Shown here in pieces: positions 6,664 through 30,558 of a stretch of DNA of 64,000 bases. The position numbers and the translations under genes are program-made. Position 1 is the first letter of the stretch. The number at the start of each line of letters is the position of its first letter. Source of the DNA: Gordonibacter sp. An230 (GTDB taxonomy: Bacteria; Actinomycetota; Coriobacteriia; Coriobacteriales; Eggerthellaceae); contig NZ_NFJP01000003.1 of assembly GCF_002159915.1 (NCBI RefSeq), positions 62,001 to 126,000 of the forward strand, written 5' to 3'. The notes under the pieces are model-generated. The model saw only the letters and a program-made list of their open reading frames with translations. It did not search any database and was not told the DNA's origin.

Positions 6664-6693
6664 TGAGAGAGAGAAAAAAAAAGGGGGGGGGGG
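6664..6693. repeat. Polypurine tract, copy 1
   Basis: TGAGAGAGAG followed by nine A and eleven G. An almost identical tract (nine A, ten G) is at 44676-44704. It is intergenic, 50 bp downstream of the b-type membrane protein gene. Confidence 0.8.
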
Positions 6694-12196: not shown

Positions 12197-12217
12197 ACTA
12201 TTCTATTTTGAGGATAT
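12197..12217 (-). promoter_or_regulatory. Conserved upstream box, module B
   Basis: A 21-bp sequence identical to 28974-28994 and similar to 1749-1769. The core on the plus strand is CTATTCTATTTTGAGGATAT. It lies 5 bp upstream of the dyad and overlaps the last codons and TAG of the radical SAM gene. It may be an activator site common to all three enzyme promoters, or a duplicated relic of a radical SAM gene end. Confidence 0.55.
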
Positions 12218-13576
12218 TATCGTATCGCCCGCGGCCTCGTCGAACGCGCGAGTGACGTCCTCAAGCTGAACAGGGGCGGCGTCCTCCGCCAATTCGACCT
12301 TGAGCTCGCGAAGCGCATAACCTTCTTCCACCTCGACGACGACGTTCGTGGACACGCATGTCCGGACCGGCCGCCCGTCCCGCACGCGCACGCGCGATGC
12401 GGCGGACAGCCATCTCGGATGAAACGACGTCGCATCCGCCTCGTCGTCCTCTATGAAGTCTGCGCACCCCAACGCGCCCAAAGCCTCGCGCACCGGCGCG
12501 CGATCGGCGCCGAACACCACCCCAGCCTTCAAAAAGAAGTCGCCGTAATCGAAGGCGTGGCACGCGCTGATGCCCGCATGCGGCTCGTTGATAGTGCGGA
12601 TCTGCGCCCGGTGCTTGTTTTCAAGGGAGCAGTAATGCATGCTCAACCCCAGCCCTTGCTCGCGCGCCCACAGCATGAGCCCAAGGCACAGCTCCTCGCT
12701 GCCGTCCACGGCAAGCGAGCCGGCGTACTCGTAATCGTAGGCCACACGGTAAGGAGGGTTGCGCAGAACGAGGCCCAGCGCCTCGAACACCTCCCAGTTC
12801 CACATGGGGTAGGCGAACTCCAGCAGATTGATCCCCTGGGCGCCTGCGGCGTCGATGCGCCGCAGCACCTCACGCATCTGCTCCTCGGTTCCCGGGATGG
12901 GAGGCATCTCCACCATCACCGCAAGCCCTGCCCGTTTCGCCGAGCCCATATTGGCCAGAACGGTGTCGAGCATGTGCGGGGGATCGTCCTGCTTGACAGA
13001 GAAACGGACCTCGTCCAATCCGCACGAGCGCAGCCGTGCGGCCAAATCAGCATCGAGCAGATCGCCCGACGTGTACATGCGCAGGTGGGTGGCCGGGAAA
13101 AGCGCTCGGGCACGGGAGAAGAACGCGCAAGCTTCGTCCGGGTAGAGCAGAGGCTCGCCGCCGGACAAGGCGAGGCACGCTGGGCTCTCGCCGCCAGCCG
13201 CCAGATCGTCAAGCTGATCGCGCCATGGAAACGGATGCTCGCAGTAGTACGCGAACCCCTCTTGGTTGGGGTTGAAGCAGAAGAAGCAGTCGCGATGGCA
13301 GTTGTTCGACAGGGCGAACGTGCGGCTTGCGCAGGAGCCCGTACATGCAAGGCATCCGGGGCTCAGACGGCCGATCGCCACGCTCGCTCCCCCGTTGCGA
13401 ACGCGCGCCCCCATCGCCCGCAACCGCTCCACCAAGACGCGCGCGCCCTCGCGAACGTCGTCGCGTGCAGCGAACGTCACGCCCGTGCCCTCGAGGGCGC
13501 GCAGATGGTCGGCTTCGATCCCCTCGTACAGCTCGAGCGCGGAGCGCGCAGCAGGATTGTCATCGAACGATGCCAT
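12203..13576 (-). CDS. Radical SAM protein of the oxidoreductase B locus
   Basis: A 457-residue radical SAM enzyme with the cluster motif CHRDCFFC (Cx3Cx2C) near residue 115 and, just before it, an extra cysteine group CLACTGSC that may bind a second cluster. LALSGGEPLLYP is the SAM-binding GGE motif. A C-terminal region with more cysteines follows. It lies downstream of torD and directly upstream of the catalytic gene, so a role in maturing oxidoreductase B or modifying it is likely (inference). AGAGGGG precedes the ATG. Modules A and C show no counterpart in view. The exact reaction cannot be named. Confidence 0.85.
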   Translation of the reverse strand: MASFDDNPAARSALELYEGIEADHLRALEGTGVTFAARDDVREGARVLVERLRAMGARVRNGGASVAIGRLSPGCLACTGSCASRTFALSNNCHRDCFFCFNPNQEGFAYYCEHPFPWRDQLDDLAAGGESPACLALSGGEPLLYPDEACAFFSRARALFPATHLRMYTSGDLLDADLAARLRSCGLDEVRFSVKQDDPPHMLDTVLANMGSAKRAGLAVMVEMPPIPGTEEQMREVLRRIDAAGAQGINLLEFAYPMWNWEVFEALGLVLRNPPYRVAYDYEYAGSLAVDGSEELCLGLMLWAREQGLGLSMHYCSLENKHRAQIRTINEPHAGISACHAFDYGDFFLKAGVVFGADRAPVREALGALGCADFIEDDEADATSFHPRWLSAASRVRVRDGRPVRTCVSTNVVVEVEEGYALRELKVELAEDAAPVQLEDVTRAFDEAAGDTIISSK

Positions 13577-13713
13577 GGACCCCTCTTTTCACAAACCGTC
13601 GGCACGGCCAAGCCGTCTATCGCAGGAAAACCTCGTCCGTTTCCCACCGCGGCGTCCTTACCGCATCGCCCCCATTCTCGCGCGAGCGCGAAACGTCAGG
13701 GCGCGGCGGGAGC

Positions 13714-14376
13714 TCACTGCAGGTACGCCGACAGAAGCTGTGCGACGGCCCGATAGTACGGCACGCGGGCCTCCGCCTCCAAGCGGTCCGCGAAACGCGG
13801 AGCGAACGTACGCAGATGATCGGCCTCGAACCGCCCGTAGGCCGCACCGGCGCCGCCTCCGGGAAAATCGCTTGCGGAAGGCCCGCCAGGACGGAGCTCG
13901 ACGATGCCCGCTTCGACCGACGCCAAATATTGAAGGAGCTCGAACTCGGTCGCAATATGGTCGAGCGGTTCGTTTGGAGATCCTTTCGCCTGGCCGAGAC
14001 CGCATTCCTTGCAAAAACGCTCCACGGCCATGCTGTGCGGGTTCACGAACATCAGGGGCTGCACGCCATCGTCGTTCGCCCGCCAAAAGCCCTCGTAGGG
14101 GCTGCACACCGCCTGAGGAGCGCCCACGAAGAGCCGGGTGGCTTCGGCGCGAAGCGCATGCAGCTCCGCCTCTTCCGCGCCAACCGCCCAATCGGCGGGC
14201 AGAGCGATGCCCAACGCGCCCCATATCTCGCGCGCCGCATCGGCCCATTCCCCCGAAACCACGATTCGAACCAGCGCGTCGTCGGGATAGCGCAGGCTCA
14301 AAGAAAGCAGCTCGCACGCCGATGCCCGCACCTGCCACGTCGCAGCGCCCATCGTCTCCCCCTCGATCACGGCCAT
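13714..14376 (-). CDS. TorD/DmsD-family chaperone, module B
   Basis: A 220-residue redox enzyme maturation chaperone. The family signature PNEPLDHIATEFELLQYL is at about residue 135. These helical cytoplasmic proteins bind the Tat signal of a molybdoenzyme and promote cofactor insertion. A ribosome site GAGGAGG lies 4 bases before the ATG at 14376; an internal ATG at 14352 is possible. It has its own promoter (14457-14485) with an imperfect copy of the module B operator, so it is probably co-regulated with oxidoreductase B. Confidence 0.9.
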   Translation of the reverse strand: MAVIEGETMGAATWQVRASACELLSLSLRYPDDALVRIVVSGEWADAAREIWGALGIALPADWAVGAEEAELHALRAEATRLFVGAPQAVCSPYEGFWRANDDGVQPLMFVNPHSMAVERFCKECGLGQAKGSPNEPLDHIATEFELLQYLASVEAGIVELRPGGPSASDFPGGGAGAAYGRFEADHLRTFAPRFADRLEAEARVPYYRAVAQLLSAYLQ

Positions 14377-14456
14377 CCCGCCTCCTCACCGCGCCCCATG
14401 TCGCGCGCCCCGTCCGGAAGCGTCCCGACGCGGGATCCTTCCATCTCTCGTCGTTC

Positions 14457-14485
14457 AGATTATCACAATGTTTTGCGACATTCAA
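14457..14485 (-). promoter_or_regulatory. Promoter and operator of the torD-radical SAM operon
   Basis: Minus strand TTGAAT (14480-14485), 17 bp, TAATCT (14457-14462). TATCACAA-TGTT-TTGCGACA (14461-14480) has the same 8-4-8 layout as the dyad at 12171-12190, one arm identical and the other matching at six of eight. Confidence 0.65.
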
Positions 14486-14660
14486 CCTATCGAGCGCGAG
14501 AGCCGACAGGACAAGCGCGAGGCCGATCCGGGAAAAGCGGCAGCGAGGCCCCCGCCGAAGAAAGCCCGGAGCGCGTCCACCTCGGAAAGGGCCACCCGAT
14601 CTCGACGCAGCAAGCGGACCCGCGCACGACAGGCAGCAGAGCGCAGCGGGCCAGCGGGGC

Positions 14661-15056
14661 CTACCCCAGCGCGCGATGGGCGAGACGGGCCTCCACGAGC
14701 GCGACGATGTCGTCGTCCGCCATTCCGGCATGCGCGCAGGTGCGGATGAGGTCGTCGGCCAAAAGCTCGATGGCGTTGTCGGTGGCGCGCGCGGCGCCAA
14801 CCTCCCGTCGTTCGGTCACAAACGTGCCGCGGCCCTTACGCGTGACGATGTAGCCTTCGCGTTCGAGATCCATGTAAGCGCGGTTCACCGTGTTGTAGCT
14901 GATGTCCAGCTTCACGGCCAACGCGCGCACAGTGGGCAGCTGGTCGCCCGGCGCGTACTCGCCCGCTCCGATGAGGTAAGCGATGCGGTTCTTCACCTGT
15001 ATCCAGACGGGCAGACCGCTGGCGTAGTCTATTTCGAAGGAGGCAAGCTGGTTCAT
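14661..15056 (-). CDS. GntR-family (YtrA-type) regulator, cassette B
   Basis: A 131-residue winged-helix protein: GLPVWIQVKNRIAYLIGAGE, then LPTVRALAVKLDISYNTVNR as the recognition segment, then a short C-terminal helical tail. The ATG overlaps the TGA of the SPFH gene by ATGA, so translation is coupled; gene order (NrfD, SPFH, GntR) differs from cassettes A and C. The recognition helix differs from the paralogues (KLDISYN against DVEVNYN and EISINYN), which fits its different candidate operator TTGTCGCAA. Confidence 0.9.
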   Translation of the reverse strand: MNQLASFEIDYASGLPVWIQVKNRIAYLIGAGEYAPGDQLPTVRALAVKLDISYNTVNRAYMDLEREGYIVTRKGRGTFVTERREVGAARATDNAIELLADDLIRTCAHAGMADDDIVALVEARLAHRALG

Positions 15057-16030
15057 GGCGTCTTTCTCTCAGCAATGCGGTTTTCGCTCATCATACCACT
15101 ATCCGTGAAGCCATCGGACAGCGCGCTGGGAACGGTGACAACAGCGCCCCTCGATTCCTTCACCGTGTCGTACTGCATGAGCATCGTGCGCAGCTTGAGC
15201 GCCGCGTCGGGGTCGCCATAGACGCGAGCGGCCTCAGCCAGCATCTCGGCCAGATCCGCCTCCACCCCCGCCACGGTCATGCGGGCGTTCTTCTCGCGGT
15301 CCGCCTGGGCTTCGAGCGACATCGCCTCCTGCAGCTCGTCGGGGATGCGTATGTCGCGAACCTTCACGGATATGACGTCGACGCCCCAACCGGCGGCTTC
15401 CTTCTCTATATCCTCTTTGATCTCGGCATCCAGCTGATCGCGTCGCAAGGCGACCTCGGCCACGGTCGAACGGCCCACGGCCTCGCGCAAGGCGGTCTGG
15501 GCGAGGAACGACACGGCCGCGTAGTAGTCCTCCACCTCGGTGCACGCCTTCTCGGCGTCCCACACCACCCAGAACAGCACTGCGTCCACCATCACGGGCA
15601 CGAGGTCTGCCGTGAGGGTCTTCTCCGCGTAGAAGGGCGTGGCAATGGTGCGCTGGTCCACGCGGATGGTGCCATGCTCGACGACGGGAATGGTGAGGTA
15701 CAGCCCCGGCCCCACAACGCGGTTCAGGTTGCCGAAGCGCAGCACCACCACCTTTTCCCACGACAGCGCGATGTGCACCGACGACACCGAGAGCAACGCG
15801 ACGAGCAGCATGAGCGCCACTGTCTCCACGCCGATGCGGCCGGTGAGCGCCACCCCCGCCGCCAGCACGACGGCGCACGACAGCGCGAACACGGCCAAGT
15901 TGAAGATGAGCGCCCCGTTGCGAGACGACTTGCGCGGCACGTAGGAAGTGGCGGCGAGGATCTCAGCGTCCTTGTCGCGCATATCGTACGGCGCGTCCCT
16001 CATGATGCGGTCTTTCGGTCGTCGTGCCAT
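15053..16030 (-). CDS. SPFH/band-7 (slipin-like) membrane protein, cassette B
   Basis: A 325-residue paralogue of the proteins at 3785 and 29586. Two hydrophobic segments (about residues 40-85) are followed by the band-7 domain (VHIALSWEKVVVLRFGNLNRVVGPG), the slipin segment WGVDVISVKVRDIRIPDELQ and an AQADREKNARMTVAGVE helix. The C-terminus (VVTVPSALSDGF) is conserved in all three paralogues and may be a partner-binding tail. It starts 17 bp after the NrfD-like gene with GGAAGGACGGGG upstream of the ATG at 16030. Function in the respiratory module is unknown. Confidence 0.9.
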   Translation of the reverse strand: MARRPKDRIMRDAPYDMRDKDAEILAATSYVPRKSSRNGALIFNLAVFALSCAVVLAAGVALTGRIGVETVALMLLVALLSVSSVHIALSWEKVVVLRFGNLNRVVGPGLYLTIPVVEHGTIRVDQRTIATPFYAEKTLTADLVPVMVDAVLFWVVWDAEKACTEVEDYYAAVSFLAQTALREAVGRSTVAEVALRRDQLDAEIKEDIEKEAAGWGVDVISVKVRDIRIPDELQEAMSLEAQADREKNARMTVAGVEADLAEMLAEAARVYGDPDAALKLRTMLMQYDTVKESRGAVVTVPSALSDGFTDSGMMSENRIAERKTP

Positions 16031-16047
16031 GCGTCCCCGTCCTTCCC

Positions 16048-16950
16048 CTATCCTGCCGAGAACCCGAACAGGGCGCTCGGAACCTGAGTCACGTCGTACA
16101 GCCCGGCTTGCACAAAGCAGAACCGCAGCGCACAGCCGCCCGCCAGCACGAACCCGGCGATCCAAAGCAGCTGCGAATGGTGGTTGTTATGCGTGAGCAA
16201 GCGCTCCATGACGAAGGGGACCGCCTGCCCCGCCGCCACGACGCCGCCCCAGAAGGCGGGCGCGAGACCACCCGAGACGAGAGCCGCGGCCGCAGGACGC
16301 GTCCCCTCCCCCGCCAGACCCCACGCCACGTAGGCCGCCAGGCACGCGGCCTCGAGCACGATGAGCGCCCCGTCGACCCGTGCGAGCAACGCGAGGGTCC
16401 GTCCGTTCGGTCGGCGTGTCTCGACGAACGCCGCCGACATGAGAACGAGCGCCACTCCGCACGACAAAGACGAGAGCGCGAACGTCGCAGGCAGAAGCGG
16501 CGTGCGCCAGAAGAGCACAGACGCGAGCCCTTGGAGGAGCACGCCGGTGTAGGTGATGGCGACAAGGCCGGCCGCAAGCGTCACGACCGAGAGGGCGAAG
16601 CGGACCGCGCGAGACGCCCGCACGGTATCGACCAAGGCGAACACGGAAAACGCCGCCGCGCATCCAACCGCCACGGCAAGCGCGTACGCCCCGGCCGCAA
16701 GCGGCGTGGGGCGCGGCGAGGAGAGCAGCATGAGCAGCCGATCGGGCCGACCGAGGTCGGCCACGATGCACACGATGCCCGTGACCAGCGTCACCGCGCA
16801 GACGGGCCACGCACGGGCGAGCAGATCGTCAGGAAGCCCCATACGCCCGGGCGCGATCACGCGCACAGCCTCGAGCACGGAGAGGACCACGCATGCGCCA
16901 CCCCCCGCGCCGCCCAGAAACAGATACCCTATGACGAGCAGATCGAACAT
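16048..16950 (-). CDS. Orphan NrfD-like integral membrane protein, cassette B
   Basis: A 300-residue NrfD superfamily protein of eight or nine helices starting MFDLLVIGYLFLGGAGGGA. VADLGRPDRLLMLL and YTGVLLQGLASVLFWRTPLL match the family core and the paralogues at 5248 and 31040. It is first in the cassette, with a promoter at 17035-17043 and an operator half site downstream of the -10. No FeS gene adjoins it. The ATG at 16950 aligns with the other two starts; the longer frame to 17016 has no ribosome site. Confidence 0.87.
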   Translation of the reverse strand: MFDLLVIGYLFLGGAGGGACVVLSVLEAVRVIAPGRMGLPDDLLARAWPVCAVTLVTGIVCIVADLGRPDRLLMLLSSPRPTPLAAGAYALAVAVGCAAAFSVFALVDTVRASRAVRFALSVVTLAAGLVAITYTGVLLQGLASVLFWRTPLLPATFALSSLSCGVALVLMSAAFVETRRPNGRTLALLARVDGALIVLEAACLAAYVAWGLAGEGTRPAAAALVSGGLAPAFWGGVVAAGQAVPFVMERLLTHNNHHSQLLWIAGFVLAGGCALRFCFVQAGLYDVTQVPSALFGFSAG

Positions 16951-17007
16951 GCGCCCCCGCTTCGCCAACGCCCCGCGCGCGGACGCGCGGACGCGATGCC
17001 GTCCCCA

Positions 17008-17043
17008 TTGTCGCAATGTAGCAAATCAATGGTCATTATAGCA
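17008..17043 (-). promoter_or_regulatory. Extended -10 promoter and operator half site of cassette B
   Basis: Minus strand TGCTATAAT (17035-17043) is an extended -10. TTGTCGCAA on the plus strand (17008-17016) is an exact nine-base half site of the oxidoreductase B dyad and lies just downstream of the -10, a position that suits autorepression. Confidence 0.6.
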
Positions 17044-17117
17044 CCGCACGCGCATTCGCATGGCGACGTTTCGCGAACCGCGCACCGGCCCGGTCCGCTC
17101 CCCTCGCCGACGCGCTC

Positions 17118-17654
17118 TTAGAGACCGTCGCGCAGCGCCTTGAGCTTCGCGAGCGTATCGGGATCGATGCGGCTGGCCACGGTGCGCTTCTCGGAAACCT
17201 TCGGCGCCTCGTCGAGGCGCGCCTCCTCCTCGTAGCTGGCCATCTCGCGGCTGAACCCGTCTGCGCTCATGCGGTCCACCCCGCCGCCGAACACCGTATC
17301 CTGTATGGTGGCGTCGCTCGTGACCACGAGCGTTTCCACCTGGCGCTCGCGCGCGTCATGGGCGAGCTTCTCGATCACCTTGTCGGCCGACTGCCCCGCC
17401 GGGGAGAACACGATGCGCACGCCGCCCACGCACGTGGCCTCTCCGGTGGAAAACTCGTTCCGCGCGCCGTCGAACACGATGACGGCGCGCCAATCGCGGC
17501 CCGCGTAGCTCGCCACGTCGTTCACGAGCATCTCGCGCGCGGCGTTGAAGGTGTCATCGGTGCAGTCCTCACCGGGCGCAACGCGGTAGCGGCTGCCCGA
17601 GCGCAGCACGTTGTAGCCGTCGACAAGGAGGAGCTTTTTGCGTTGCCTTGCCAT
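17118..17654 (-). CDS. NYN-domain RNase, YacP/Rae1-like
   Basis: A 178-residue NYN (PIN-like) domain protein. LLLVDGYNVLRSG gives the first catalytic Asp (D12); VIVFDGARNEF and VVTSDATIQDTVFGGG supply others. B. subtilis Rae1 of this family cleaves mRNA on the ribosome. It has a short C-terminal helical tail. The ATG lies at 17654. The next gene in the same direction, rlmB, ends 236 bp upstream, a pairing seen in many Gram-positive genomes, although here a gap separates them. Confidence 0.85.
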   Translation of the reverse strand: MARQRKKLLLVDGYNVLRSGSRYRVAPGEDCTDDTFNAAREMLVNDVASYAGRDWRAVIVFDGARNEFSTGEATCVGGVRIVFSPAGQSADKVIEKLAHDARERQVETLVVTSDATIQDTVFGGGVDRMSADGFSREMASYEEEARLDEAPKVSEKRTVASRIDPDTLAKLKALRDGL

Positions 17655-17890
17655 CCTCGCGCCTCACCGGGCCCTCTCGGCGAGGGAGGATGGCCGAAAG
17701 GCCCCGAGCCATCTGGGCGGATTCGTCGCGGATCGCTCGGCCTCCCACCTCGCGCCCGACCGGACGCGGCTCGCCAGCCTCCCGAGAAGAACGCAGCCTG
17801 CATCGGCGCGCAGCGAGAGGCCGGAACGGATGCGCGCGCGCCGGCAACGCGCGCATCCGGAGCACGCCCCAATCCGGCCGGACGGTCCGG

Positions 17891-18637
17891 CTACCTGTTC
17901 TGGCGCAGCCATTCGTACATGCAGGCGGTGGCAGCCTGGGCGACGTTGAGCGAGGCGACCTCGCCCTCGACGGGCAGCTTCGCAAGCAGATCGCAGTGTT
18001 CCATTACCAGGCGCGACAGCCCCTCTTGCTCGTTGCCCATGACGAGCGCGATCTTGCCCTTGAGGTTCACATCCCAGATGACGTCGCTCGCATGCTCGGT
18101 GGCCCCGGCGATCCAGAAGCCCTCTTCTTTGAGGCGCATCATCGCCTGCACGAGGTTCGACACCTGCGCCACGGGAAGATGGGCGATGGCGCCCGCCGAG
18201 CTCTTGTACGTGGACGCCTCCACGCGGGCGCTGCGCTTGTTGGGGATGACGAGGCCGCATGCGCCCACCGTCTCGGCGCTGCGGGCGATGGCCCCGAAGT
18301 TGCCGGCATCGGTGATGTGGTCGAGGAGGATGACGAGCGCACGCCCGTCCCGCTCGGCGGTACGGCGCGCGGCGGCGTCCGCGATCTCGCCGATGCCCAC
18401 GTAGCCAAACGGCTTGGCCTGAGCGAGCACGCCCTGATGGCTTCCCCGCTCGGACCGCTCGTCAAGCGTGCGGCGCGGCACCAGCTTCACGGGCACGTCG
18501 GCCCGCTTCGCCTTGCGCAGGATGTCCTCCACAAGGCCGTCCTTCCTCACATAGTCGCCCAGAAGCACGCACTTCATAGGCACGCCGGTGCGCAGCGCCT
18601 CGACGACGGGGCGCTTGCCCTCGATGAAATCAGCCAT
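17891..18637 (-). CDS. rlmB: 23S rRNA (guanosine-2'-O-)-methyltransferase RlmB (SpoU/TrmH family)
   Basis: A 248-residue SPOUT methyltransferase. An N-terminal substrate-binding region (EGKRPVVEALRTG) precedes the catalytic domain with LDHITDAGNFGAIARSAE (motif 1), LVMGNEQEGLS (motif 2) and LNVAQAATACMYEW (motif 3), the knotted SAM site. It methylates a ribose in 23S rRNA helix or, in related subfamilies, tRNA. The ATG at 18637 has AAAAGGACC upstream; the longer frame to 18802 adds residues without homology. Confidence 0.92.
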   Translation of the reverse strand: MADFIEGKRPVVEALRTGVPMKCVLLGDYVRKDGLVEDILRKAKRADVPVKLVPRRTLDERSERGSHQGVLAQAKPFGYVGIGEIADAAARRTAERDGRALVILLDHITDAGNFGAIARSAETVGACGLVIPNKRSARVEASTYKSSAGAIAHLPVAQVSNLVQAMMRLKEEGFWIAGATEHASDVIWDVNLKGKIALVMGNEQEGLSRLVMEHCDLLAKLPVEGEVASLNVAQAATACMYEWLRQNR

Positions 18638-18810
18638 ATCCGGTCCTTTTTCCCTCGCCTGCGTGAACCCAGGCGGGGCATCGCACGGCAAAATCGTTAC
18701 CGCAGCCATTATGGCAGACACCGTGACAGGATGTGCGCGCCGCAGCGAGTTTTCCAACGTTTCGCCACGCCCCAGAAAAGGGCGCCGAACGCCTTCCGAC
18801 ATGATCGTCG

Positions 18811-19788
18811 TCAGTCGCAGGAACGATCCTCGCGGGAGGAGGCGCCCTCGTCCGCGCCAACGCCGTCGCCGACGACCCTCTCGCGAGCGCGCAGGGCGTC
18901 GGAGGAGACGGCGACGTCAGAGCGCAAAGGCTCATCGAAGCCCTTGCGGCCGACGCGCCCTTCGTCGCCCCCTCCGCGCCGACGACCCCCTTCCCGCGCT
19001 CGGCCGCCCGCCGCATGCCGCCTGAGCAGCCGCGGCAAGCGCCTCTGGCGGGCCGTCGCATCGCCGCCGTGCAGGAACACCCCCGCCGCAACGCGGCGAA
19101 CCTTGCCCACGCCGCGCGCCACATGCGGGGTGAGGTCGGCCTCGCTCGCCGTCCTCCAATCGAAATACACGCTCCAATAGCGCAGGAACGTGACCGCGAA
19201 CACGCACGCCACGCCAGCGATGGGCAGCGGGCAGCCCGCGTAAGCGAGCGTCACGAACACGAACGAGCCGCCAAGGCCCGCCACCGCGTAGAAGTTCGAC
19301 TGCTGGAAGATTCCGGGCGTCTCGCCCACGCAGATGTCGCGCATCGCGCCGCCGCCCACCGCCGTGATTCCGCCGAGAATCACCGACAGCACGAAGCCTT
19401 CGCCGTTCGCGAACGCCTTGCTGGCGCCCGCGAGCGCGAACAAGCCCACCGACAGCGCGTCGGCGAAGAACACCGTGGCGTCCAAATGACGGAACAGCCC
19501 ACGGAAGTAGAAGACGAACACGCAGATGACGATGCAGATGACGATGAGGTCGGGGTGCGAGGTGAAGTACACGCCGCGATCCTGCATCAGCATGTCGCGC
19601 ATGATGCCACCGCCATAGCCTGTGAGCAGGCCGAGCACCACCGTGCCGATGATGTCGAGCTTGCGGTCGCACGCGAACAACGCGCCGGTGAGCGCGCCCA
19701 CGACCACCGAGAAGTAATCGATGCTCCACGGCACGGAGAGCGCCTGGCCCTGCACGTCATGCGCGAACAGCGCGTCGAAGAGCTCCAT
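18811..19788 (-). CDS. TRIC-family cation channel (UPF0126, YicG-like) with long polar tail
   Basis: A 325-residue membrane protein with the two repeated UPF0126 domains of prokaryotic trimeric cation channels: GLLTGYGGGIMRDML and GGITAVGGGAMRDIC are the glycine-rich repeats. About seven helices end near residue 220. The last 100 residues are Arg/Gly/Glu-rich and unusual for the family (normally about 205-230 residues), so the native stop may have been lost or the tail may be cytoplasmic and disordered. Permeating ion is probably potassium or sodium by family. Confidence 0.85.
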   Translation of the reverse strand: MELFDALFAHDVQGQALSVPWSIDYFSVVVGALTGALFACDRKLDIIGTVVLGLLTGYGGGIMRDMLMQDRGVYFTSHPDLIVICIVICVFVFYFRGLFRHLDATVFFADALSVGLFALAGASKAFANGEGFVLSVILGGITAVGGGAMRDICVGETPGIFQQSNFYAVAGLGGSFVFVTLAYAGCPLPIAGVACVFAVTFLRYWSVYFDWRTASEADLTPHVARGVGKVRRVAAGVFLHGGDATARQRRLPRLLRRHAAGGRAREGGRRRGGGDEGRVGRKGFDEPLRSDVAVSSDALRARERVVGDGVGADEGASSREDRSCD

Positions 19789-20166
19789 AACGCCCGTGCG
19801 CCCCTTTCAGCCTCTCTGTTCGACCTTCCCACACGCCCGCCGTCCGGCCGAAATGCCAACCGGGCGCTAGGCGACCCCGATGTCCGGCCGTTCCGACGCC
19901 CGACCACGTCGCCGTCTCGCCCGACGCCCGCACGTCGCCAACTTGTCGCACGGCCATCGCCCCGACCGCTTGGCCGGCACGATGCTCCAATGCCGGACGG
20001 TTTGACCGCCGCGAAACTCCGCCGCTCGACCGCGGCTCGGCCTTGCCGCACCGCGCGAGACGACACGCGATGCGCGAACGACACGCAGATTATAGCAGGA
20101 GCGAAACCTTCCCGACCTGATATGATACGAAGCGTCGAGAACACCTCCCCATCGAAAGGGACTCCC
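19789..20166. promoter_or_regulatory. Divergent intergenic region with alcohol dehydrogenase promoter
   Basis: A 378-bp region between two divergent genes. TGATATGAT at 20118-20126 is a good extended -10 for the plus-strand dehydrogenase, about 40 bp before its GTG start. No convincing -35. The rest is GC-rich with many CCGnCCG stretches and no gene. Confidence 0.45.
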
Positions 20167-21231: not shown

Positions 21232-21356
21232 GGCGCGCCACAACTCCGCGCCGAGGCGCTCCGTCGCGCACCGCCGAGGCGCCCGCCCCCTGCCACGATG
21301 GCGCTGCGGGGATCGTCAGGGCCATGCGCCCCGCTCCCCGCAAGTCCGCCTCCCGT

Positions 21357-22922
21357 CTACCGGCGGCGCTGCGTAAGCTGGTAGGCCACCAGCAAAACGG
21401 CCAGCCAGACAGGCCCCACGACCACGGCCACGCGGTAACTGGGCGAGAAGCACATCGCCACCACCACGCACGCCAGAAACGCCAGCACGAGGTAGGGCAT
21501 CACGCGCGCGAAGGGCAGCTTGAACTGGATGCGGTCCACGGCCTTCTTGCCCGTAAGCCCCGCCAGATCGCCCGGGCCGCGCCCAGCGGCCACCGCACGG
21601 CGGAAGCGCAACTGGGTCACCATGATGATGGTCCAGTTGATGATGGCCGAGATGGTGGCGATGCTCATCAGGTAGTTGAACGCGAATTCCGGCCACAAAA
21701 ACACCACCACGACGGCCACCACGGTGACCCCGGCCGAGGTGAGCACGCCCGCCGCCGGCACGCCCCGGCGGCTCAACCGCCCCAGATACGCCGGCGCGTT
21801 GCCCTGATGCGCCAGCGAGTACAACATGCGCGAGTTCGCGTACAAACCCGAGTTGTACACGCTCATCACCGCCGTCAGGCACACGAAGTTCAAAATGCCC
21901 GCGGCAGCATGCACGCCCACCGAGTCGAAGATGCGCACGAACGGGCTCACCTGCCCGTCGAGGGTGTCCCACGGCACCACGGCCATGATGACGCCCAGCG
22001 CGCAGAGGTAGAACACGAGGATGCGCCAGACAACGCCGTTGGTGGCCTTCGGAATGGTGCGGCGAGGGTTTTCCGTCTCGCCGGCCGTGACACCGATGAG
22101 CTCGGTGCCGCCGAAGCTGAACATCACCACGGTAAGCGCCATCAGAAGGCCGGTCCACTGCCCGTCGGGCCGCTGCTCCATGAGCCCGTTCGGCAGAAAG
22201 CCGCCGTCCAAGGCGAACAGGTTCGCGAACGACGCGGGAATGCCCGAGTCGGTGGGCAGCGCAAGCGCGACCACCGCCAAACCGCCCACGATCATCGCGA
22301 CCACCGCCGTGATCTTGATGATGGCGAACCAGAACTCGAATTCGCCGAACTTCTTCACGCCCAGAAGGTTCGCCGACGTGATGACCACGAGGAAAAACGC
22401 CGCCGACACCCATTCGGGGATGCCGGGGAACCAATAGTTCACGAACGACCCCACCACCGACAGCTCCACCATCGACACGAGGATGTAGTTGAACCAGTAG
22501 TTCCACCCCGAGACGAAGCCCGCTCGCTTCGACCAATAGCGCGTGGCGTAGTAGCTGAACGCTCCGGCACGCGGATCCTCCACCGACATCTCGGACAAGG
22601 CGCGCACGATCATGAACGTCACGAGGCCGCCGACGAGGTAGGCCAAGAGGATGGAGGGGCCCGCCAGCGAAATGGAGTCGCTCGAACCGTAGAACAGCCC
22701 CGTGCCGATGGCGCCGCCGAGCGCGATCAGCTGGATATGGCGGTTTTTGAGCGAGCGGCGCAGCGCGCCCTCGCCTTCGGGCGCGGCGGCTGCGGCGCGC
22801 GCGTCCTCGGACACACCGACGTCCGCGGCCCCGTCCGCGCATTCGCCCGCACTCCGACCGCCACCCGGATCGCCGCCGCGCAGCACCCGGCTGCACACCG
22901 CTTTCGGATCGTTCTCCTCCAC
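21357..22922 (-). CDS. APC-family amino acid permease
   Basis: A 521-residue amino acid transporter of the AAT branch (AroP/LysP/ProY type). After a polar N-terminus of about 50 residues, LKNRHIQLIALGGAIGTGLFYGS opens helix 1 with the substrate-binding GAIGTG; EMSVEDPRAGAFSYYATRYW and VMFSFGGTELIGVTAGETENP are further signatures. About twelve helices. The GTG at 22922 is chosen over the open upstream frame because a GAGGCGAGG site precedes it. Convergent with the dehydrogenase gene; the amino acid cannot be told. Confidence 0.9.
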   Translation of the reverse strand: MEENDPKAVCSRVLRGGDPGGGRSAGECADGAADVGVSEDARAAAAAPEGEGALRRSLKNRHIQLIALGGAIGTGLFYGSSDSISLAGPSILLAYLVGGLVTFMIVRALSEMSVEDPRAGAFSYYATRYWSKRAGFVSGWNYWFNYILVSMVELSVVGSFVNYWFPGIPEWVSAAFFLVVITSANLLGVKKFGEFEFWFAIIKITAVVAMIVGGLAVVALALPTDSGIPASFANLFALDGGFLPNGLMEQRPDGQWTGLLMALTVVMFSFGGTELIGVTAGETENPRRTIPKATNGVVWRILVFYLCALGVIMAVVPWDTLDGQVSPFVRIFDSVGVHAAAGILNFVCLTAVMSVYNSGLYANSRMLYSLAHQGNAPAYLGRLSRRGVPAAGVLTSAGVTVVAVVVVFLWPEFAFNYLMSIATISAIINWTIIMVTQLRFRRAVAAGRGPGDLAGLTGKKAVDRIQFKLPFARVMPYLVLAFLACVVVAMCFSPSYRVAVVVGPVWLAVLLVAYQLTQRRR

Positions 22923-23567
22923 GCCCCTCGCCTCTCGTCCTTGCCCGCATCGCGCGGGCGGCCTGTGCTTAAAGCGCTCATTATACGGCAAACCCAATCC
23001 GCAGAATGCGAGAGACGACGAGCGATTCTACGGAAGCTCGAAGAATCGAAAAAGGGGCATCCGCGACATCTGCCCGCAGCAGCACTGAAAACGAGGGTCC
23101 CTCTCCAGAAAGCGCGTCGAGAGGCGGTCCCAGCTCGACGCAGTCGAAGCGCGGTCGCCCTCGGGAAGCTTTAACGGCCGTGCGCGCTTTAGGCCATTTT
23201 CATATCTCGCCGAAAAACGCGAGGACGCCGCCCGACCTGAACGAGACGCCGCCGAGCACGGAGAGGCCCATGATCGACGCTTCAGCATCGAAACCTCCTT
23301 CGAAGATGGCATTTGCGCCGGACGTCTCGACGAGGCCAAACTCGAGAAGCGTTCCGCAGCCCTCCCGCGCGAACCAACGAACAAGGAGTGCCTTGCCCAC
23401 TTGACACGCGCCGACAACCAGCAAAGCGCCGTTGCGAAGGAGCCCCTTTCAAGCACCAAGCTGCAGGGGCGCTTCGCGCAAACGTCGCACCCCCCCGCTT
23501 TTTTTGCGATGCGTCTCACCAAAAGGCAACCGGCGAATGCGATGCGCTTTGGCAGAGCAGCCTCTAC
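22923..23567. other. 645-bp gap upstream of the permease
   Basis: No gene is firmly supported. A very good ribosome site (AAGGAGGT, about 23294-23301 on the minus strand) stands before an ATG at 23288, but the 87-residue frame that follows lacks recognisable features. A frame at 23200-23424 encodes a hydrophobic Gly-rich peptide ending GGVLAFFGEI. One of these may be a real small gene. Confidence 0.3.
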
Positions 23568-24281
23568 CTACTTGCCGCTCTCGGCGTCTTCGGCAAACAG
23601 CTTGCGACGCGCTTGGCCTTCTTTCAACGGAACGTGCAGAAGGGCGTCGGCGAGGGCCAGCAAACGGGAGAAGTAGCCGGACGGGGCAGCATCCTCCACG
23701 GCAATGCACAAGGAGGAGAGCCAGGCGAGGAGATGGGTCTCGATAAAGGAGACGACCTCGTCCGACGCAGAGGATCCGCCTTTCGCAGCGAGCGCGCCCC
23801 TCTCCTCTGCGGCACGAGCGCAGAGCACGGAGAGATAGAGGAGCTCGATTCCCATATGGTCCTCGTACTGGTTGTTCTCGTTCCTCACCTCAAGGCCCGC
23901 CTCGCGCAGACGGCGGCGCATGTCGAACGTCGCCTCGCCGAACCCGACAGCCGCGCCCCCTGCCGCAGCGCCGCCTCGATGCATGGTCTCCCAAGGCGGC
24001 GCGGCGGGAGACGGCGGACCAACGAACAGACGCGTGTACTCCACCGCGCAGCGCTCCACCGGATCGCAGCCGTCGGAGGCGGCGGCTTCGCGGGCAGCGT
24101 GGGCGTAAGCGGCCAGATCAGTGCAAGCCCCCGCGACATCCGGGCTGCCAAACGTCGGGAACGCCTTCCAAAACGCCGGGTCGAGGCCGACGTCCGAGGT
24201 CTGCGTCATGGGTTTGAGCAGCGAGTTCCCCACAAAGGCGTAGGCTTCGGAGAGCTCTTTCCAAGAAACATGGGCGGACAT
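23568..24281 (-). CDS. TorD-family chaperone, module C
   Basis: A 237-residue all-helical protein of the TorD/DmsD type, more divergent than the one in module B. ERCAVEYTRLFVGP is the N-terminal family segment, and NNQYEDHMGIELLYLSVL corresponds to the signature PxDHIxxEL. It should bind the Tat signal of oxidoreductase C during maturation. It is the last gene of the operon, 177 bp after the NrfD gene, with AAAGGAGGAC before the ATG at 24281. It ends in a charged tail. Confidence 0.85.
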   Translation of the reverse strand: MSAHVSWKELSEAYAFVGNSLLKPMTQTSDVGLDPAFWKAFPTFGSPDVAGACTDLAAYAHAAREAAASDGCDPVERCAVEYTRLFVGPPSPAAPPWETMHRGGAAAGGAAVGFGEATFDMRRRLREAGLEVRNENNQYEDHMGIELLYLSVLCARAAEERGALAAKGGSSASDEVVSFIETHLLAWLSSLCIAVEDAAPSGYFSRLLALADALLHVPLKEGQARRKLFAEDAESGK

Positions 24282-24458
24282 GAGCGTCCTCCTTTCTCGA
24301 GAGCGCTCTGCCGGACTCCCCGTCCGGCAGAGCGAAATAAGGGGTGGCGAAACTTCAACTGAGCCCGCCGCCCGCAGAAGGCGAGGCCAAGCGCCTTCGA
24401 AAGCAACCGCGAACCTGCGCGCCGCCAGGAGCACGAAGCCGAGCCTCGCGCAGTCCGA

Positions 24459-25712
24459 CTACGCAGCGTCGGCAGCCTTGCCGGAAGCCGCGACGTCAGC
24501 CCCGTTGGGAGCCACCACGGCCTCAAGCTCGGGAGCCTCTGCGACCGCCCCCTTCCCCAAAAGCTTTCGGCACAGCACCATGAACGCGAGCGCACCCAGC
24601 GACACCACGCCGATGACCACCACGAACTCGACCCACGTGGGCACATACGAGCTTGCCACGGCCCACACGTCGGCCCCCGAGGCGGACCGCGCCGCCGTGG
24701 AACCCGCCATCACGCCCGGAGCGCCGACCACGTTGAACTCCGAAAACGACGTGAGCAGGAGCCACACGCGCTTGCACAGCACTCCGGCCACCACGAGCGC
24801 GCTCGCCAGCGCCACCAGCCCCATGCGCGCGCGGTTGCGCGCGAACACGAGGATGCAGAACGGCACCAGAACGCCCGCGACGATCTCGAACCAGAAGAAC
24901 GGAGCTGTCGCGCCCGTCGCCATGATCGACAGCGTCTCGGCGCCCGCCGCGCCGGGATACGCCATCGTCAGCACCTCGCAGCCCACCATGAAGCCGTCGA
25001 TGGCCACGCAGGTGGCCAGTAGCCCGGCCAGGTTCGACAGCAGCCTCTTCTCCACCTTGAACGCGTTCGCCTTATCCAACCCCAAAAGCGACAGGATGAG
25101 CAGCGCAAGGCCCGAATCCATGGCGCTCACCACGAACAGCGGCGCCATGATGGCCGAGTACCAACCCTCTTTCGCCATCTCCAGGCCGAATATCCATGCG
25201 GTCACGCTATGCACGAGGATCGCCACCGGCAGCGCGAAGCGGCTCACGATGGACACCTTGCCCGCCGCGCCCGGCTTCTTCGAGGTCATGAATCGCAAAT
25301 AGACGAGGTTGATGACCAGATACAGCGTGATGACGCAGATATCCCAGAACAGGGGGGACGTTGGGTTCGGGCCCGTGACAATACGCCACACTCGCTGGAT
25401 GCCGCCGAGGTCGATGAGCACGAACATGCCCGCGCAGCAGATGCACACCGTGGACAGGATGACGGCGGGCAGCGCCACCTTCTTGTACTGCGCCACGTGG
25501 AACACGCTCGCCGACGAGGCCACGATAAGCCCGCCCGCGGAAAGCCCCACGAAGAACATGAACATCGTGATGTAGAGGCCCCACGAGGTGCCGTTGCTCA
25601 TGCCGGTCACGCCGAGGCCGCTTGCCAGCTGGTAGATCCACGCCGCCACGCCGGCCGCCGTCAGCGCGCCCAGCACGCCGGCGGCCGCTTTGAATTTCAT
25701 TGAAGCTCCCAT
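24459..25712 (-). CDS. NrfD-like quinol-oxidising membrane subunit, oxidoreductase C operon
   Basis: A 417-residue membrane subunit with about ten helices, sharing WGLYITMFMFFVGLSAGGLI and LIDLGGIQRVWRI with the module B subunit. It should anchor the enzyme and oxidise menaquinol. An Ala-rich C-terminal tail (about 40 residues) is probably cytoplasmic. AGGAGG lies 8 bases before the ATG at 25712; an in-frame GTG at 25721 overlaps that site and is rejected. It starts 15 bp after the FeS gene. Confidence 0.92.
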   Translation of the reverse strand: MGASMKFKAAAGVLGALTAAGVAAWIYQLASGLGVTGMSNGTSWGLYITMFMFFVGLSAGGLIVASSASVFHVAQYKKVALPAVILSTVCICCAGMFVLIDLGGIQRVWRIVTGPNPTSPLFWDICVITLYLVINLVYLRFMTSKKPGAAGKVSIVSRFALPVAILVHSVTAWIFGLEMAKEGWYSAIMAPLFVVSAMDSGLALLILSLLGLDKANAFKVEKRLLSNLAGLLATCVAIDGFMVGCEVLTMAYPGAAGAETLSIMATGATAPFFWFEIVAGVLVPFCILVFARNRARMGLVALASALVVAGVLCKRVWLLLTSFSEFNVVGAPGVMAGSTAARSASGADVWAVASSYVPTWVEFVVVIGVVSLGALAFMVLCRKLLGKGAVAEAPELEAVVAPNGADVAASGKAADAA

Positions 25713-25727
25713 AGCTCGCACCTCCTC

Positions 25728-26345
25728 CTAGTTGAAGTAATGAACCTGCGGACGCGTGCCCTGCTCCTCCAGCAGCACGTAAGCGTTGCGCTCGCGAATG
25801 GCGCGCGACACCTCGCTGTCCGGATCGTCAAGGTCGCCGAAGATTCGAGCGCGCGTGGGACAGCAGGCAACACACTGCGGATCCTCGCCGCGGTCGGTGC
25901 GCTCCTTGCACAGCGTGCATTTCTCAACCACGCCCTTCGAACGCACGGGCACGTCTTTGTCACCATAGTTGAAATCCGGTTCGCGCACCGAATCATCCCA
26001 GTTGAACACACGTGCGTTGTAAGGGCACGCCGCCATGCACATACGGCATCCGATGCATTTGTCGTAGTCCACTTGCACGCGCCCTTTATCGTCTTTGTAC
26101 GTTGCACCCGTAGGGCATACTCGCTGGCACGCCGCGTTCTCGCAATGTTGACAGGCGATGGGAAGGTACGTACGCGAAAGGTTGGGGAATTCGCCTAAAG
26201 CACCGTCCTCGACGTCGCAACCTTCGGTCAAAACTCGGTTCCAACGCATGCCCTGCGGCACGTTGTTCTGCATCTTGCATGCGAAGGCGCATGTCTGACA
26301 ACCGATGCAGCGCGTTTTGTTAATCGCCATTCCAAGTTTCGTCAT
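25728..26345 (-). CDS. DmsB-like four-cluster ferredoxin subunit, module C
   Basis: A 205-residue subunit with cysteine groups CIGCQTCAFAC, CQHCENAACQRVC, CIGCRMCMAAC and CTLC...CVACC, predicting four 4Fe-4S clusters. The fourth group has an extra adjacent cysteine (VACCP). It lies 10 bp after the catalytic gene and before the membrane subunit, the standard order for this type of enzyme, and would carry electrons from the NrfD subunit to the molybdenum site. Confidence 0.95.
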   Translation of the reverse strand: MTKLGMAINKTRCIGCQTCAFACKMQNNVPQGMRWNRVLTEGCDVEDGALGEFPNLSRTYLPIACQHCENAACQRVCPTGATYKDDKGRVQVDYDKCIGCRMCMAACPYNARVFNWDDSVREPDFNYGDKDVPVRSKGVVEKCTLCKERTDRGEDPQCVACCPTRARIFGDLDDPDSEVSRAIRERNAYVLLEEQGTRPQVHYFN

Positions 26346-26355
26346 GGCGCATCAC

Positions 26356-28782
26356 CTACGCTTTCTCGATCTGGACGAGGGTATCGTTGTAAGGAATTTG
26401 CGGCCCGAAGTACAGCGAGTACGCTCGCTCGATGCGCGCCGAATTCGTCACGTTCTGAAGAAAGCCCTCATCGTAGTAGCGGGTATAGGTCGTCTCGGCC
26501 ATGAACAGCACGCCCGGCTGCAAGCTGGGGTTCACATGTACACCGCATTTGAACTCACCCCGGCCGTTGAACACACGCACCTTGTCTCCCGTCGAAATGC
26601 CGCGGGCCTCGGCGTCTTCGGGACTGATGTTCACATACGGCCCGAAATTCTCTTGGAACCACTGATTCGACGTGTAATACGCGTGGATGCGGTAGCGAGT
26701 TTTGCCCTGCATGAAGTACAGCGGATACTGCTCTTTCAGGGGGTTGGCCTCGAATGCTTCATTGGCATCCTCGTACACGGGGAACTGATGCCCGAAATCG
26801 CTCAAATACTCGAAATAGCATTCTATTTTGCCGGACGGCGTTGGGATCTCGTCGACTCCCCCATCGGGGCGATAATCCGGACCCGCGCCCGCCACCGGCA
26901 GGCATCCACCGCTTTCGAGCAGCTTCTCGTAGGTAATGCCCTTCATGTTCGGATCGAGCTTCTCCACCCCGTCCAACATGAAGCGCGCCAATTCCTCATA
27001 GGTTTCCGGCAGCAGATGCTCAAGACCCCATTCGGCGGCCAGCAGGCGCTCGATTTGCAAGTCGGACTTCGACTCGAACAGGGGCTTGACCATGCCGTTC
27101 GCCAGCATCACGTGGCCGTAGCTGGCGCGGAGAGCCTTCACATCCTCCTCGCATTCGAACTTCGAGCAAGCCGGCAAGACGATGTCGGCGTAGTCCACCG
27201 CAGACGAATGGTAGATGTCAACGATGGCGAAAAAGTCCAGGCTCTTGACCCAGGCCAAGGTGTCGTTGGCCGCAGCCGCCTGCAACGTGAACGCGTCGCC
27301 AAACGTGAGCGCCACGCGAATGGGATTCTCCTTGTATGGCATATCGTACATGGAGATGCCGCACGTGGTGTACGCGTATTCTTCGGGAAGCGACCAGGCG
27401 TTCAACGTGGCGGCAGGATCGTCGGCGCCCAAGCCACCGTGGTAGAACCCGAAGCCAGCACCGGGCTTGCCGTAGTTGCCCGTGATGGCGACCAAGATGG
27501 AGGTCGAATGTCCCAACACATCGGCATTGGTGTACTTGTCGGGACCACCCAACCCGAAGTCGATGATGGCGGGACCATTGTTGGCGTAGCGGTCGGCCAG
27601 CGCGGCTATCCCCTCCTGAGAAATGCCGCATGTCTCGGCCGCCCACTCCAGGGAATAGTCGGCCAGCCATTCCTTCATCAGGGTGAACTCGGTTGAATAC
27701 TCCTTACCGTCAATCATCCATGTGCCTTCGAGCGCCGGCTGCACGTCAGACTCATTGTACAGGCGCGGCCCACCGGAGACTTCGTCCCATACGTACGGCG
27801 CACCCACTTCCTCCAAAGAGACAACGGCGGGGTTGGGGCACATCGATTCGGCGCTGCGATACGTCTTGCCCGCCGCACGATCAACCAGATGCACCAGCGA
27901 GGTGTTCGCCTTTACGAACTCTTCGTCGTACCATCCCTCATCAAGAATGACGCGTATCATACCCTGAATGAGCGCCGCATCCGTTCCAGGCCGCACAGGA
28001 AGCCACTCATCGGACTTCGACGCCGTGCCAGTGAAACGCGGGTCGACAGTGACGATATGCACGCCTGCTTCTTTGGCGTCCATCAAAGCACGGGACCACA
28101 CGATGCCGCTTTCAAGCGGATTGTGCCCCAACTCGATAATGGTGGAAGCATCTGAGAATTCCCAGATAGAGCGGTTCGGACAATAACTGAAGGGGCCGAA
28201 AGCGCAGGCGGTCCCGTTGGGTTGGCCACGATCAAGCCCCCAGTTGCCGCCCGAGTCCGCTTTGATAAGCGCCCCAAAGAAGTCGAAATCGATACCGGCC
28301 TCAGTTGACTTGCGGACGAACACCGATTCCTCGCCGTACTTCTCTTGAGCCGCTTTGATAGCTTCAGCGATGGTTTTTATGGCCTCCTCCCAGCTTATCT
28401 GCTCGAACTTGCCCTCACCGCGCTCGCCCACACGCCTGAGTGGCGTTTGGATGCGGTCCTGTGCGTAAATGTGCTGAACTTCGGATATGCCACGCAGGCA
28501 GACAGTACGATGATGCTCGTCCACCAAATCGCTTGGCTCCACCATGACCACGCGGTCATCACGGATGGTGCATTTTAGATTGCAGCCGGTCAGACAATGG
28601 AACTGATGACACAAATGTGCCGTCCGCTCCTCCGTCTCAGCGTGGGCCTCGGCGGGTGCGAGCCAACCATCGGACGTCGTCATGCCCGCAGCCGCCGCAA
28701 GGCCAAGAGCGCCAGCGGCGCCCGAGGCTTTGAGAAAGCTCCTGCGCGAAAGCCCGCCATGCGGGCCGCTCGTTCCTGACAT
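26356..28782 (-). CDS. Molybdopterin oxidoreductase C, catalytic subunit
   Basis: An 808-residue DMSO-reductase superfamily enzyme. Tat motif LSRRSFLKAS (residues 11-20); cluster cysteines C63, C67, C71 and C95, with an extra C58. Where enzymes A and B have CLDxG it has GNWGLDRGQ, so the metal ligand and substrate class probably differ. The C-terminal pterin domain includes VNISPEDAEARGISTGDKV. GAGGAGAC precedes the ATG at 28782. It heads an operon with FeS, NrfD and TorD genes. Its promoter carries a 17-bp-arm dyad and the common box. Substrate unknown. Confidence 0.95.
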   Translation of the reverse strand: MSGTSGPHGGLSRRSFLKASGAAGALGLAAAAGMTTSDGWLAPAEAHAETEERTAHLCHQFHCLTGCNLKCTIRDDRVVMVEPSDLVDEHHRTVCLRGISEVQHIYAQDRIQTPLRRVGERGEGKFEQISWEEAIKTIAEAIKAAQEKYGEESVFVRKSTEAGIDFDFFGALIKADSGGNWGLDRGQPNGTACAFGPFSYCPNRSIWEFSDASTIIELGHNPLESGIVWSRALMDAKEAGVHIVTVDPRFTGTASKSDEWLPVRPGTDAALIQGMIRVILDEGWYDEEFVKANTSLVHLVDRAAGKTYRSAESMCPNPAVVSLEEVGAPYVWDEVSGGPRLYNESDVQPALEGTWMIDGKEYSTEFTLMKEWLADYSLEWAAETCGISQEGIAALADRYANNGPAIIDFGLGGPDKYTNADVLGHSTSILVAITGNYGKPGAGFGFYHGGLGADDPAATLNAWSLPEEYAYTTCGISMYDMPYKENPIRVALTFGDAFTLQAAAANDTLAWVKSLDFFAIVDIYHSSAVDYADIVLPACSKFECEEDVKALRASYGHVMLANGMVKPLFESKSDLQIERLLAAEWGLEHLLPETYEELARFMLDGVEKLDPNMKGITYEKLLESGGCLPVAGAGPDYRPDGGVDEIPTPSGKIECYFEYLSDFGHQFPVYEDANEAFEANPLKEQYPLYFMQGKTRYRIHAYYTSNQWFQENFGPYVNISPEDAEARGISTGDKVRVFNGRGEFKCGVHVNPSLQPGVLFMAETTYTRYYDEGFLQNVTNSARIERAYSLYFGPQIPYNDTLVQIEKA

Positions 28783-28916
28783 GTCTCCTCCTCAAAGATG
28801 TCGTCAGGATATCCCCGGTGTGCTGGATGCGTGGCCTTTGCCGGTCCGGCCAGCAAGCCCCATGCGAGGACACCCCCGTTTCTCCTCGTGAGAATTGGCC
28901 AAATTCCACTGTGCCC

Positions 28917-28964
28917 AGTGTACAAAATAATCATATGACAATCAAGAATTGTCCTATGATTATT
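28917..28964 (-). promoter_or_regulatory. Promoter and long dyad operator of oxidoreductase C
   Basis: Minus strand TTGATT (28940-28945), 17 bp, TACACT (28917-28922). An inverted repeat with 17-bp arms (28926-28942 and 28948-28964, 16 of 17 paired, 5-bp centre) covers the -35. The right arm extended to 22 nt matches the cassette C promoter site at 32177-32198 in 19 positions. The -10 context TACACTGGG is shared with the oxidoreductase B promoter. Confidence 0.75.
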
Positions 28965-28973
28965 TGTCAGCAG

Positions 28974-28994
28974 ACTATTCTATTTTGAGGATAT
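28974..28994 (-). promoter_or_regulatory. Conserved upstream box, module C
   Basis: Identical over 21 bp to 12197-12217, 9 bp upstream of the dyad. Here it is intergenic. Confidence 0.55.
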
Positions 28995-30554: not shown

Positions 30555-30558
30555 CCGA

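Follow-up and report, generated by a model that had tools for sequence, protein, structure and literature searches.

A palindromic box shared by molybdoenzyme operons and the modA promoter in Gordonibacter sp. An230 and its relatives is probably the site of a ModE-type regulator

What is a 21-bp box doing upstream of three separate molybdoenzyme operons, and which protein would read it? The question is raised by a 64,000-nucleotide stretch of the genome of Gordonibacter sp. An230 (Eggerthellaceae; contig NZ_NFJP01000003.1, positions 62,001 to 126,000), referred to here as the window, which corresponds to G000:C23:62001-126000 in our numbering of this 3.88-Mb genome and which contains three molybdoenzyme modules, A, B and C. 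Comparison within the window confirmed the original prediction that the boxes at 12197-12217 and 28974-28994 share all 21 bp and that the one at 1749-1769 agrees with them at 16 of 21 positions. All three are oriented with their genes:

1749-1769, minus strand: box A, core TATTCTTAAAATAGCATA at 1751-1768, upstream of molybdoenzyme operon A; matrix score 37.9
12197-12217, minus strand: box B, core TATCCTCAAAATAGAATA at 12199-12216, overlapping the last codons of a radical SAM gene; matrix score 38.1
28974-28994, minus strand: box C, core at 28976-28993, identical to the core of B; matrix score 38.8

Read in the coding orientation, boxes B and C are ATATCCTCAAAATAGAATAGT and box A is TTATTCTTAAAATAGCATAAT. 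Alignment with the other genomic sites resolves the box into a dyad, TATTCT-N6-AGAATA, commonly flanked by T or A, whose letters other than A and T are conserved (C at position 5 and G at position 14, each in 43 of 47 sites). No further 21-mer on either strand of the window attains 16 matches, the nearest being one with 15 at 26804, and shuffling the mononucleotides of the region upstream of A produced 16 matches once in 2000 trials. Genome-wide, the 21-mer at up to three mismatches finds only B, C and a site at C13:45753 before modA (reversed control, none), and the 18-bp core at up to two mismatches finds five sites in 3.88 Mb (reversed control, none): the core is perfect at modA, has one mismatch each in A, B and C, and has two at C23:161561, a site outside the window, ahead of a molybdoenzyme and of a gene judged by eye to be DmsC-like. 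Four of these five strong sites therefore lie before molybdoenzyme operons and one in the promoter of modA, a gene that passes the curated cut-off of TIGR01256 (105.2 bits against 62.5) and is followed by permease and ATPase genes. Given the genome and window counts against reversed and shuffled controls, chance or a simple repeat was rejected as an explanation. At three mismatches the genome holds nine sites against three for the reversed pattern; seven of the nine have no molybdoenzyme nearby and appear to be chance matches, and the other two lie at molybdoenzyme open reading frames (ORFs), one (L017) with an orthologous promoter that carries clear sites in G063 and G079 and one (L020) overlapping the 5' end of the ORF as called.

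The box is widespread in the family. Across 138 family genomes, our own included, the pattern at up to two mismatches gives 199 matches against 20 for its reverse, and 91 genomes carry a match. Among relatives' sites with examined loci, 62 of 92 distinct sites lie within 600 bp of modA or of the first gene of a molybdoenzyme operon, a figure that combines 11 of 30 program-chosen sites with 38 of 43 and 13 of 19 chosen by us and is not an unbiased rate. Our 40 further loci leaned towards zero or one mismatch and towards larger genomes, the 20 later loci were likewise our choice, and one site present in two loci (L056 and L299) was counted once. The boxes of L301 and L310 precede a gene taken by eye for a cytochrome, and the next gene in L301 encodes a PF00174 molybdopterin enzyme. 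Relatives' sites away from molybdoenzymes adjoin solute-binding, flavin adenine dinucleotide (FAD)-dependent and HipA-like genes, and were taken as chance or unexplained.

Some individual sites have arrangements of their own. In L111 (2916 and 3023) and L115 (2897 and 3005), two boxes about 107 bp apart share one intergenic region between divergent molybdoenzyme genes, one box for each direction. In L034 and L036, from two genomes of one genus, a box-like site without a molybdoenzyme separates a solute-binding gene (SBP_bac_5 in L034) from a gene identified by eye as a 2-oxoacid:ferredoxin oxidoreductase subunit. A further box-like site, in L305 and L307, stands before a TTGACT promoter ahead of an unannotated membrane-like protein and is conserved in G068 and G069.

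A site in the promoter of the molybdate transporter and sites at molybdoenzyme operons are both marks of a ModE regulon, and both are found here, the latter as the four strong sites of the own genome and the 62 of 92 in relatives. The former was examined with a matrix built from 47 molybdoenzyme sites (four of them own) and no modA site. The census covered 117 of the 121 modA-bearing genomes, leaving out G001, whose upstream region is N, and the fragments in G085, G104 and G125; where G038, G048 and G094 have a second modA copy, that copy lacks a site and was dropped. The matrix scores above 8 bits in 48 of the first 67 upstream regions and 27 of the other 50, 75 of 117 in all, against 0 of 67 and 3 of 50 (3 of 117) for the reversed matrix, 7 of 1340 dinucleotide shuffles of the first 67 regions and 0 of 270 windows around modE. 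A symmetric dyad with at most 3 of 14 letters mismatched is present in 56 of 67 and 28 of 50 regions (84 of 117), and in 17 of 1340 shuffles. In addition, modE diverges from modA across a gap of less than 450 bp in 13 genomes, G098-G103 and G105-G108 of one genus and G013-G015 of another. The gap or the region upstream of modA holds a zero-mismatch dyad in G100, G103, G105, G107, G108 and G014, a dyad with one mismatch in G106, and one with two or three in G015, G098, G099 and G102; an intergenic box of this kind could serve both genes. Zero-mismatch dyads also precede modA in G072, G027 and G131, where modE and modA are not neighbours.

The position of the box differs between the two classes of target. 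At modA of G000, G020, G023 and G088 the dyad sits within TTGAC(T/G)...TAATAT, which has a 17-bp spacer, and overlaps the -10, and TTGA immediately precedes the dyad in 30 of 67 modA regions. Where the target is a molybdoenzyme, the box is placed upstream of the predicted -35. For 52 molybdoenzyme sites, grouped by downstream sequence into 20 classes, the distance from box centre to -10 is mostly 41-43, 52-54, 61-64, 72 or 79-85 bp, with exceptions at 47, 67, 71 and 90. At a period of 10.5 bp the Rayleigh R is 0.74 (p 8e-5) for the 15 classes with a promoter score of at least 10, 0.87 for the 12 with at least 10.5, and 0.49 (p 0.007) for all 20, the last becoming p 0.021 with the period free between 9 and 12; several classes near 62 bp may share ancestry. 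A place in the spacer is that of a repressor, and an upstream place, mostly on one helical face, is that of an activator, so that the sequence points to the box being a repressor site at modA and an activator site at molybdoenzymes. The original prediction had offered a common activator of molybdoenzyme genes; the shared site upstream of many such genes is in keeping with this, whereas its presence in the modA promoter, in a repressor position, does not fit an activator alone.

We propose that the box is the site of a ModE-type molybdenum-responsive regulator, a reading to which we give a probability of roughly 0.74 as a whole; that it is a true regulatory site linked to molybdenum, irrespective of which protein is its reader, seems to us very likely. 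The box is real, functional-looking and widespread in the family, and the identity of its regulator is likely but unproven. Binding by a ModE-type protein, the sign of regulation and molybdenum as the signal are what we infer from these patterns. In Escherichia coli, ModE represses modABC and activates dmsABC, its database record names it a dual regulator, and the targets of its regulon (modABC, dmsABC and others) are likewise molybdate import and molybdoenzymes. The modA promoter of E. coli K-12 contains TTATATTGTCGCCTACATAA, whose TTAT-N12-ATAA frame is common to the box. The E. coli modA sequence TATATTGTCGCCTACATA and the box have the same dyad geometry, TAT-N12-ATA, at what we take to be the ModE site. 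Excerpts of PMC545781 give the published E. coli ModE consensus as ATCGNTATATA-N6-TATATANCGAT. Unlike E. coli ModE, the candidate here is a DNA-binding domain alone, in Actinomycetota, and the half-site is TTATTCT rather than of the TATATA type; the targets also differ in including NrfD-subunit modules and a cytochrome-like gene paired with a PF00174 enzyme, the latter combination in two relatives.

The candidate reader is the product of the one clear ModE-type gene of the genome (C12:145572-145913), 114 residues that end after the DNA-binding domain. It matches PF00126 at 46.3 bits, E. coli ModE over 24 residues (2e-4) and, as best PDB match, 2ijl (4e-8), whose record is named a molybdenum-binding transcriptional repressor. 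Three weaker ModE-type matches fall in frames of 299-330 residues, the size of LysR regulators. TOBE is the fold of ModE's missing half; this genome yields just two TOBE matches, both on another ORF, of 164 residues (C19:2717-3121), near which no box was found. With no TOBE domains in the 114-residue protein, our claim is that it works like ModE as a single-domain relative, a situation also described for Desulfovibrio. In two species of that genus and in D. psychrophila the ModE DNA-binding domain likewise stands alone, with predicted control of molybdate transport and with sensing unexplained in the excerpted text (PMC545781). The Desulfovibrio case differs in its predicted box, CGGTCACG-N14-CGTGACCG, and in a table of sites that, as excerpted, holds molybdate transport operons only (PMC545781). 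For Geobacter metallireducens, excerpts describe the ModE DNA-binding domain as lost and some sites as retained (PMC2700814); TOBE-domain proteins of gut microbes have also been surveyed, according to excerpts of PMC11980592.

On the ModE reading, the system would work as follows. The 114-residue protein would bind TTATTCT-N6-AGAATAA as a dimer. At modA it would cover the promoter spacer and the -10 and thereby block molybdate import, and at chosen molybdoenzyme operons it would help RNA polymerase from a place before the -35, at a distance of one to several helical turns and mostly on one face. Each operon's own inverted-repeat operator round the -35 would provide module-specific control, and the two-TOBE protein is a candidate partner for sensing. 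Perhaps ModE is split here: one protein would bind DNA and another, with two TOBE domains, would sense molybdate, the pair forming a switch that couples import to a family-wide set of molybdoenzyme modules and is overlaid, as an AND gate, on the GntR-type or LuxR-type switch of each module; this fuller scheme is tentative, and we think it rather unlikely as a whole. If the ModE reading is true, a single motif would identify the molybdenum-gated operons across many Eggerthellaceae and give a testable master regulator, and it would raise the question of how molybdenum is sensed by a ModE that has no metal-binding domain.

Several observations weigh against the ModE reading, beginning with the protein. 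Its best NCBIfam match, TIGR00637 (1.7e-10, 40.8 bits), is under the cut-off of 98.5, and the fused pair of TOBE/Mop molybdate-binding domains that characterises ModE is absent, the protein ending at 114 residues. A ModE-type protein (E up to 1e-8) is present in 129 of 138 genomes, and a near universal presence is not discriminating; the nine genomes that have no ModE-type match, too few to serve as a test, include G043, with a weak modA dyad (3 mismatches, 7.6 bits), and G104, with three pattern matches; where the pattern matches in G042 (L050) and G043 (L051), no molybdoenzyme is nearby. A scan of 30 loci in which modE is not paired with modA found no box reaching 13 bits within 1.5 kb of modE, and autoregulation of modE was rejected on this ground. 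Compared by eye, the E. coli site and the box agree in only 9 of 14 consensus letters.

The sites and promoters add to this list. The modA test falls short of full independence: boxes A, B and C and the own modA site had served to draft the pattern behind the 47 training sites, and the modA regions of G000, G020, G023 and G088 in the census were themselves pattern hits. Both the matrix and the dyad tests fail in 23 of 117 modA regions, among them those of two modE-modA pairs, G013 and G101, where no acceptable dyad lies between the genes (4 and 5 mismatches, respectively), and of G053, which has three molybdoenzyme sites and no modA site at the thresholds used. All promoters are predictions; those used for phasing were picked by consensus score, blind to phase and only downstream of the box, and an unrestricted search gave 6 of 52 sites a better-scoring promoter overlapping or before the box. 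The genome has 36 PF00384 matches, and a matrix scan of 30 of its molybdoenzyme loci found four strong sites and three weak ones (24.1, 20.1 and 16.7 bits), with nothing above 12 bits in the remainder, so that the box marks a subset of molybdoenzymes. Even among orthologues of molybdoenzyme B, the box is missing from its usual position in six loci (L164, L165 and L167-L170), with L164 showing a 21.9-bit match farther upstream; the boxes of L163 and L171 are weak, at 21.2 and 15.3 bits.

The shortcomings of the protein, with its missing sensor domain and low family score, are also what would be expected if another regulator, for example a redox or cofactor sensor, bound the box and controlled import and molybdoenzymes while the ModE-type protein acted elsewhere. 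The box-free modE loci fit this too, as does the neighbourhood of modE, which in the seven loci inspected follows a gene taken by eye for threonine synthase. Against it stand the 13 genomes in which modE diverges from modA, six with a perfect dyad between, and a target set and site spacing that match those of ModE; we regard this alternative as unlikely. An AT-rich upstream (UP) element that needs no dedicated protein would account for the base composition, the place upstream of the -35 and the helical phasing. It is nevertheless very improbable, as the box is a dyad with a conserved C and G that lies inside the spacer at modA and several turns upstream elsewhere.

The original prediction pointed to LuxR-type regulators as readers to be tested, and in E. 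lenta DSM 2243 such proteins, with 10-12 transmembrane segments, do adjoin molybdoenzymes: excerpts of PMC9734109 describe transmembrane LuxR regulators, 19 of them near molybdenum-dependent enzymes, with a part in catechol metabolism, in the same family as our organism, whose members use molybdenum enzymes on neurotransmitters and plant compounds. Those regulators differ in responding to particular substrates, and the excerpts describe no such box or molybdate control (PMC9734109). Here a single box accompanies many different local operators and also occurs at modA, and no LuxR protein was found among the module proteins scanned (part of the window ORFs), the regulators found in A and C being of the GntR type. 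A LuxR operator was thus thought unlikely, indeed barely credible, and a ModE-type regulator is the likelier reader. We found no ModE box or molybdenum regulon for Eggerthellaceae or Coriobacteriia in open-licence literature, a weak negative since 'ModE' also matches 'mode'; local substrate regulators are already known in the family, and a shared control by metal supply was not found in that literature.

The other choice that the original prediction had weighed, a shared protein-binding site against a relic of duplicated radical SAM gene ends, concerns the overlap at B, where the box encodes the end of a radical SAM gene (I-S-S-K-stop), as had been stated:

12203-13576, minus strand: radical SAM gene, stop codon inside box B

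A relic would explain this overlap, and a 106-residue ORF at C (28980-29300) likewise ends ISSK-stop, since in that frame the box itself contains a stop codon. This ORF qualifies the earlier description of box C as intergenic, which we keep as probable: Pfam and NCBIfam profile searches of the ORF gave no match, and its counterpart in the Rubneribacter badeniensis locus is 49% identical over 61 residues while the DNA is 85% identical over 199 bp, and intergenic is therefore probable, not proven. In other genomes gene end and box part company. Across the whole locus, no box reaching 14 bits accompanies the radical SAM orthologues of L165, L167, L169 and L170 (59-66% identical). In L162 and L166 the molybdoenzyme is preceded by the box with no radical SAM gene upstream, and boxes stand before modA and many other molybdoenzymes; the R. 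badeniensis locus (L161) has both, like the window. With orthologues that lack the box and boxes that lack the gene, the overlap in B is local. The prediction's preference for a binding site is thus supported, and the pattern it had named as fatal to that preference, boxes at radical SAM gene ends and not at molybdoenzyme promoters, came out the opposite way. The relic was rejected, and its likelihood is in our judgement next to nil.

The genes and predicted control elements of the three modules in the window are as follows:

1-1539, minus strand: molybdoenzyme gene A, exceeding the window; full ORF L028:1021-3540, PF00384 at 169 bits
9477-12053, minus strand: molybdoenzyme gene B, PF00384 and PF01568, with a twin-arginine translocation (Tat) signal
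8845-9477: iron-sulfur subunit after gene B, named by eye
7603-8835: NrfD subunit after gene B, PF03916
26356-28782, minus strand: molybdoenzyme gene C, PF00384 and PF01568
25728-26345: iron-sulfur subunit after gene C, named by eye
24459-25712: NrfD subunit after gene C, PF03916
1691-1719, minus strand: predicted promoter A, -35 TTGATA at 1714-1719, -10 CAGACT at 1691-1696, 17-bp spacer
12150-12178, minus strand: predicted promoter B, -35 TTGCGA at 12173-12178, -10 TACACT at 12150-12155
28917-28945, minus strand: predicted promoter C, -35 TTGATT at 28940-28945, -10 TACACT at 28917-28922
12170-12191, no strand: module operator B, an inverted repeat that includes the -35, distinct from the box
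28925-28965, no strand: module operator C, a long imperfect inverted repeat round the -35, distinct from the box; minus-strand self-match

From the end of the core to the predicted -35, always with the box upstream, the distance is 31 nt in A, 20 nt in B and 30 nt in C. The inverted repeats between box and -10 include the -35 and differ from module to module, and the predicted 4-9 bp between box and operator agrees with the sequence, the operator edges being set by eye. Since the box is common to the modules and the local operators are not, there appear to be two layers of control, a common molybdenum layer and a local one.

The module operators are likely sites of module-specific regulators, perhaps of the GntR type. 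Modules A and C contain GntR-type genes and modules B and C contain Band_7 genes; the GntR-type or Band_7 genes that adjoin the modules lie at 4839-5237, 15053-16165, 29586-30578 and 30559-31038. Genes of one or both types are also present in L166, L167, L169 and L170 and, by eye, in L301, L304 and L310. The nearest named loci to molybdoenzyme B are those of R. badeniensis (97%) and Candidatus R. avistercoris (91%), both Eggerthellaceae.

Two further features of the window are repeats. A 29-bp tract made up of a GA-run, an A-run and a G-run, possibly slippage-prone, is present twice, at 6664-6692 and 44676-44704. From 62998 to 64000, up to the window end, a repeat containing TTTTCGTCCCCTCTCGGGGTTTGGGG recurs at least 14 times at 70-79-bp spacing, very likely a clustered regularly interspaced short palindromic repeat (CRISPR) array.

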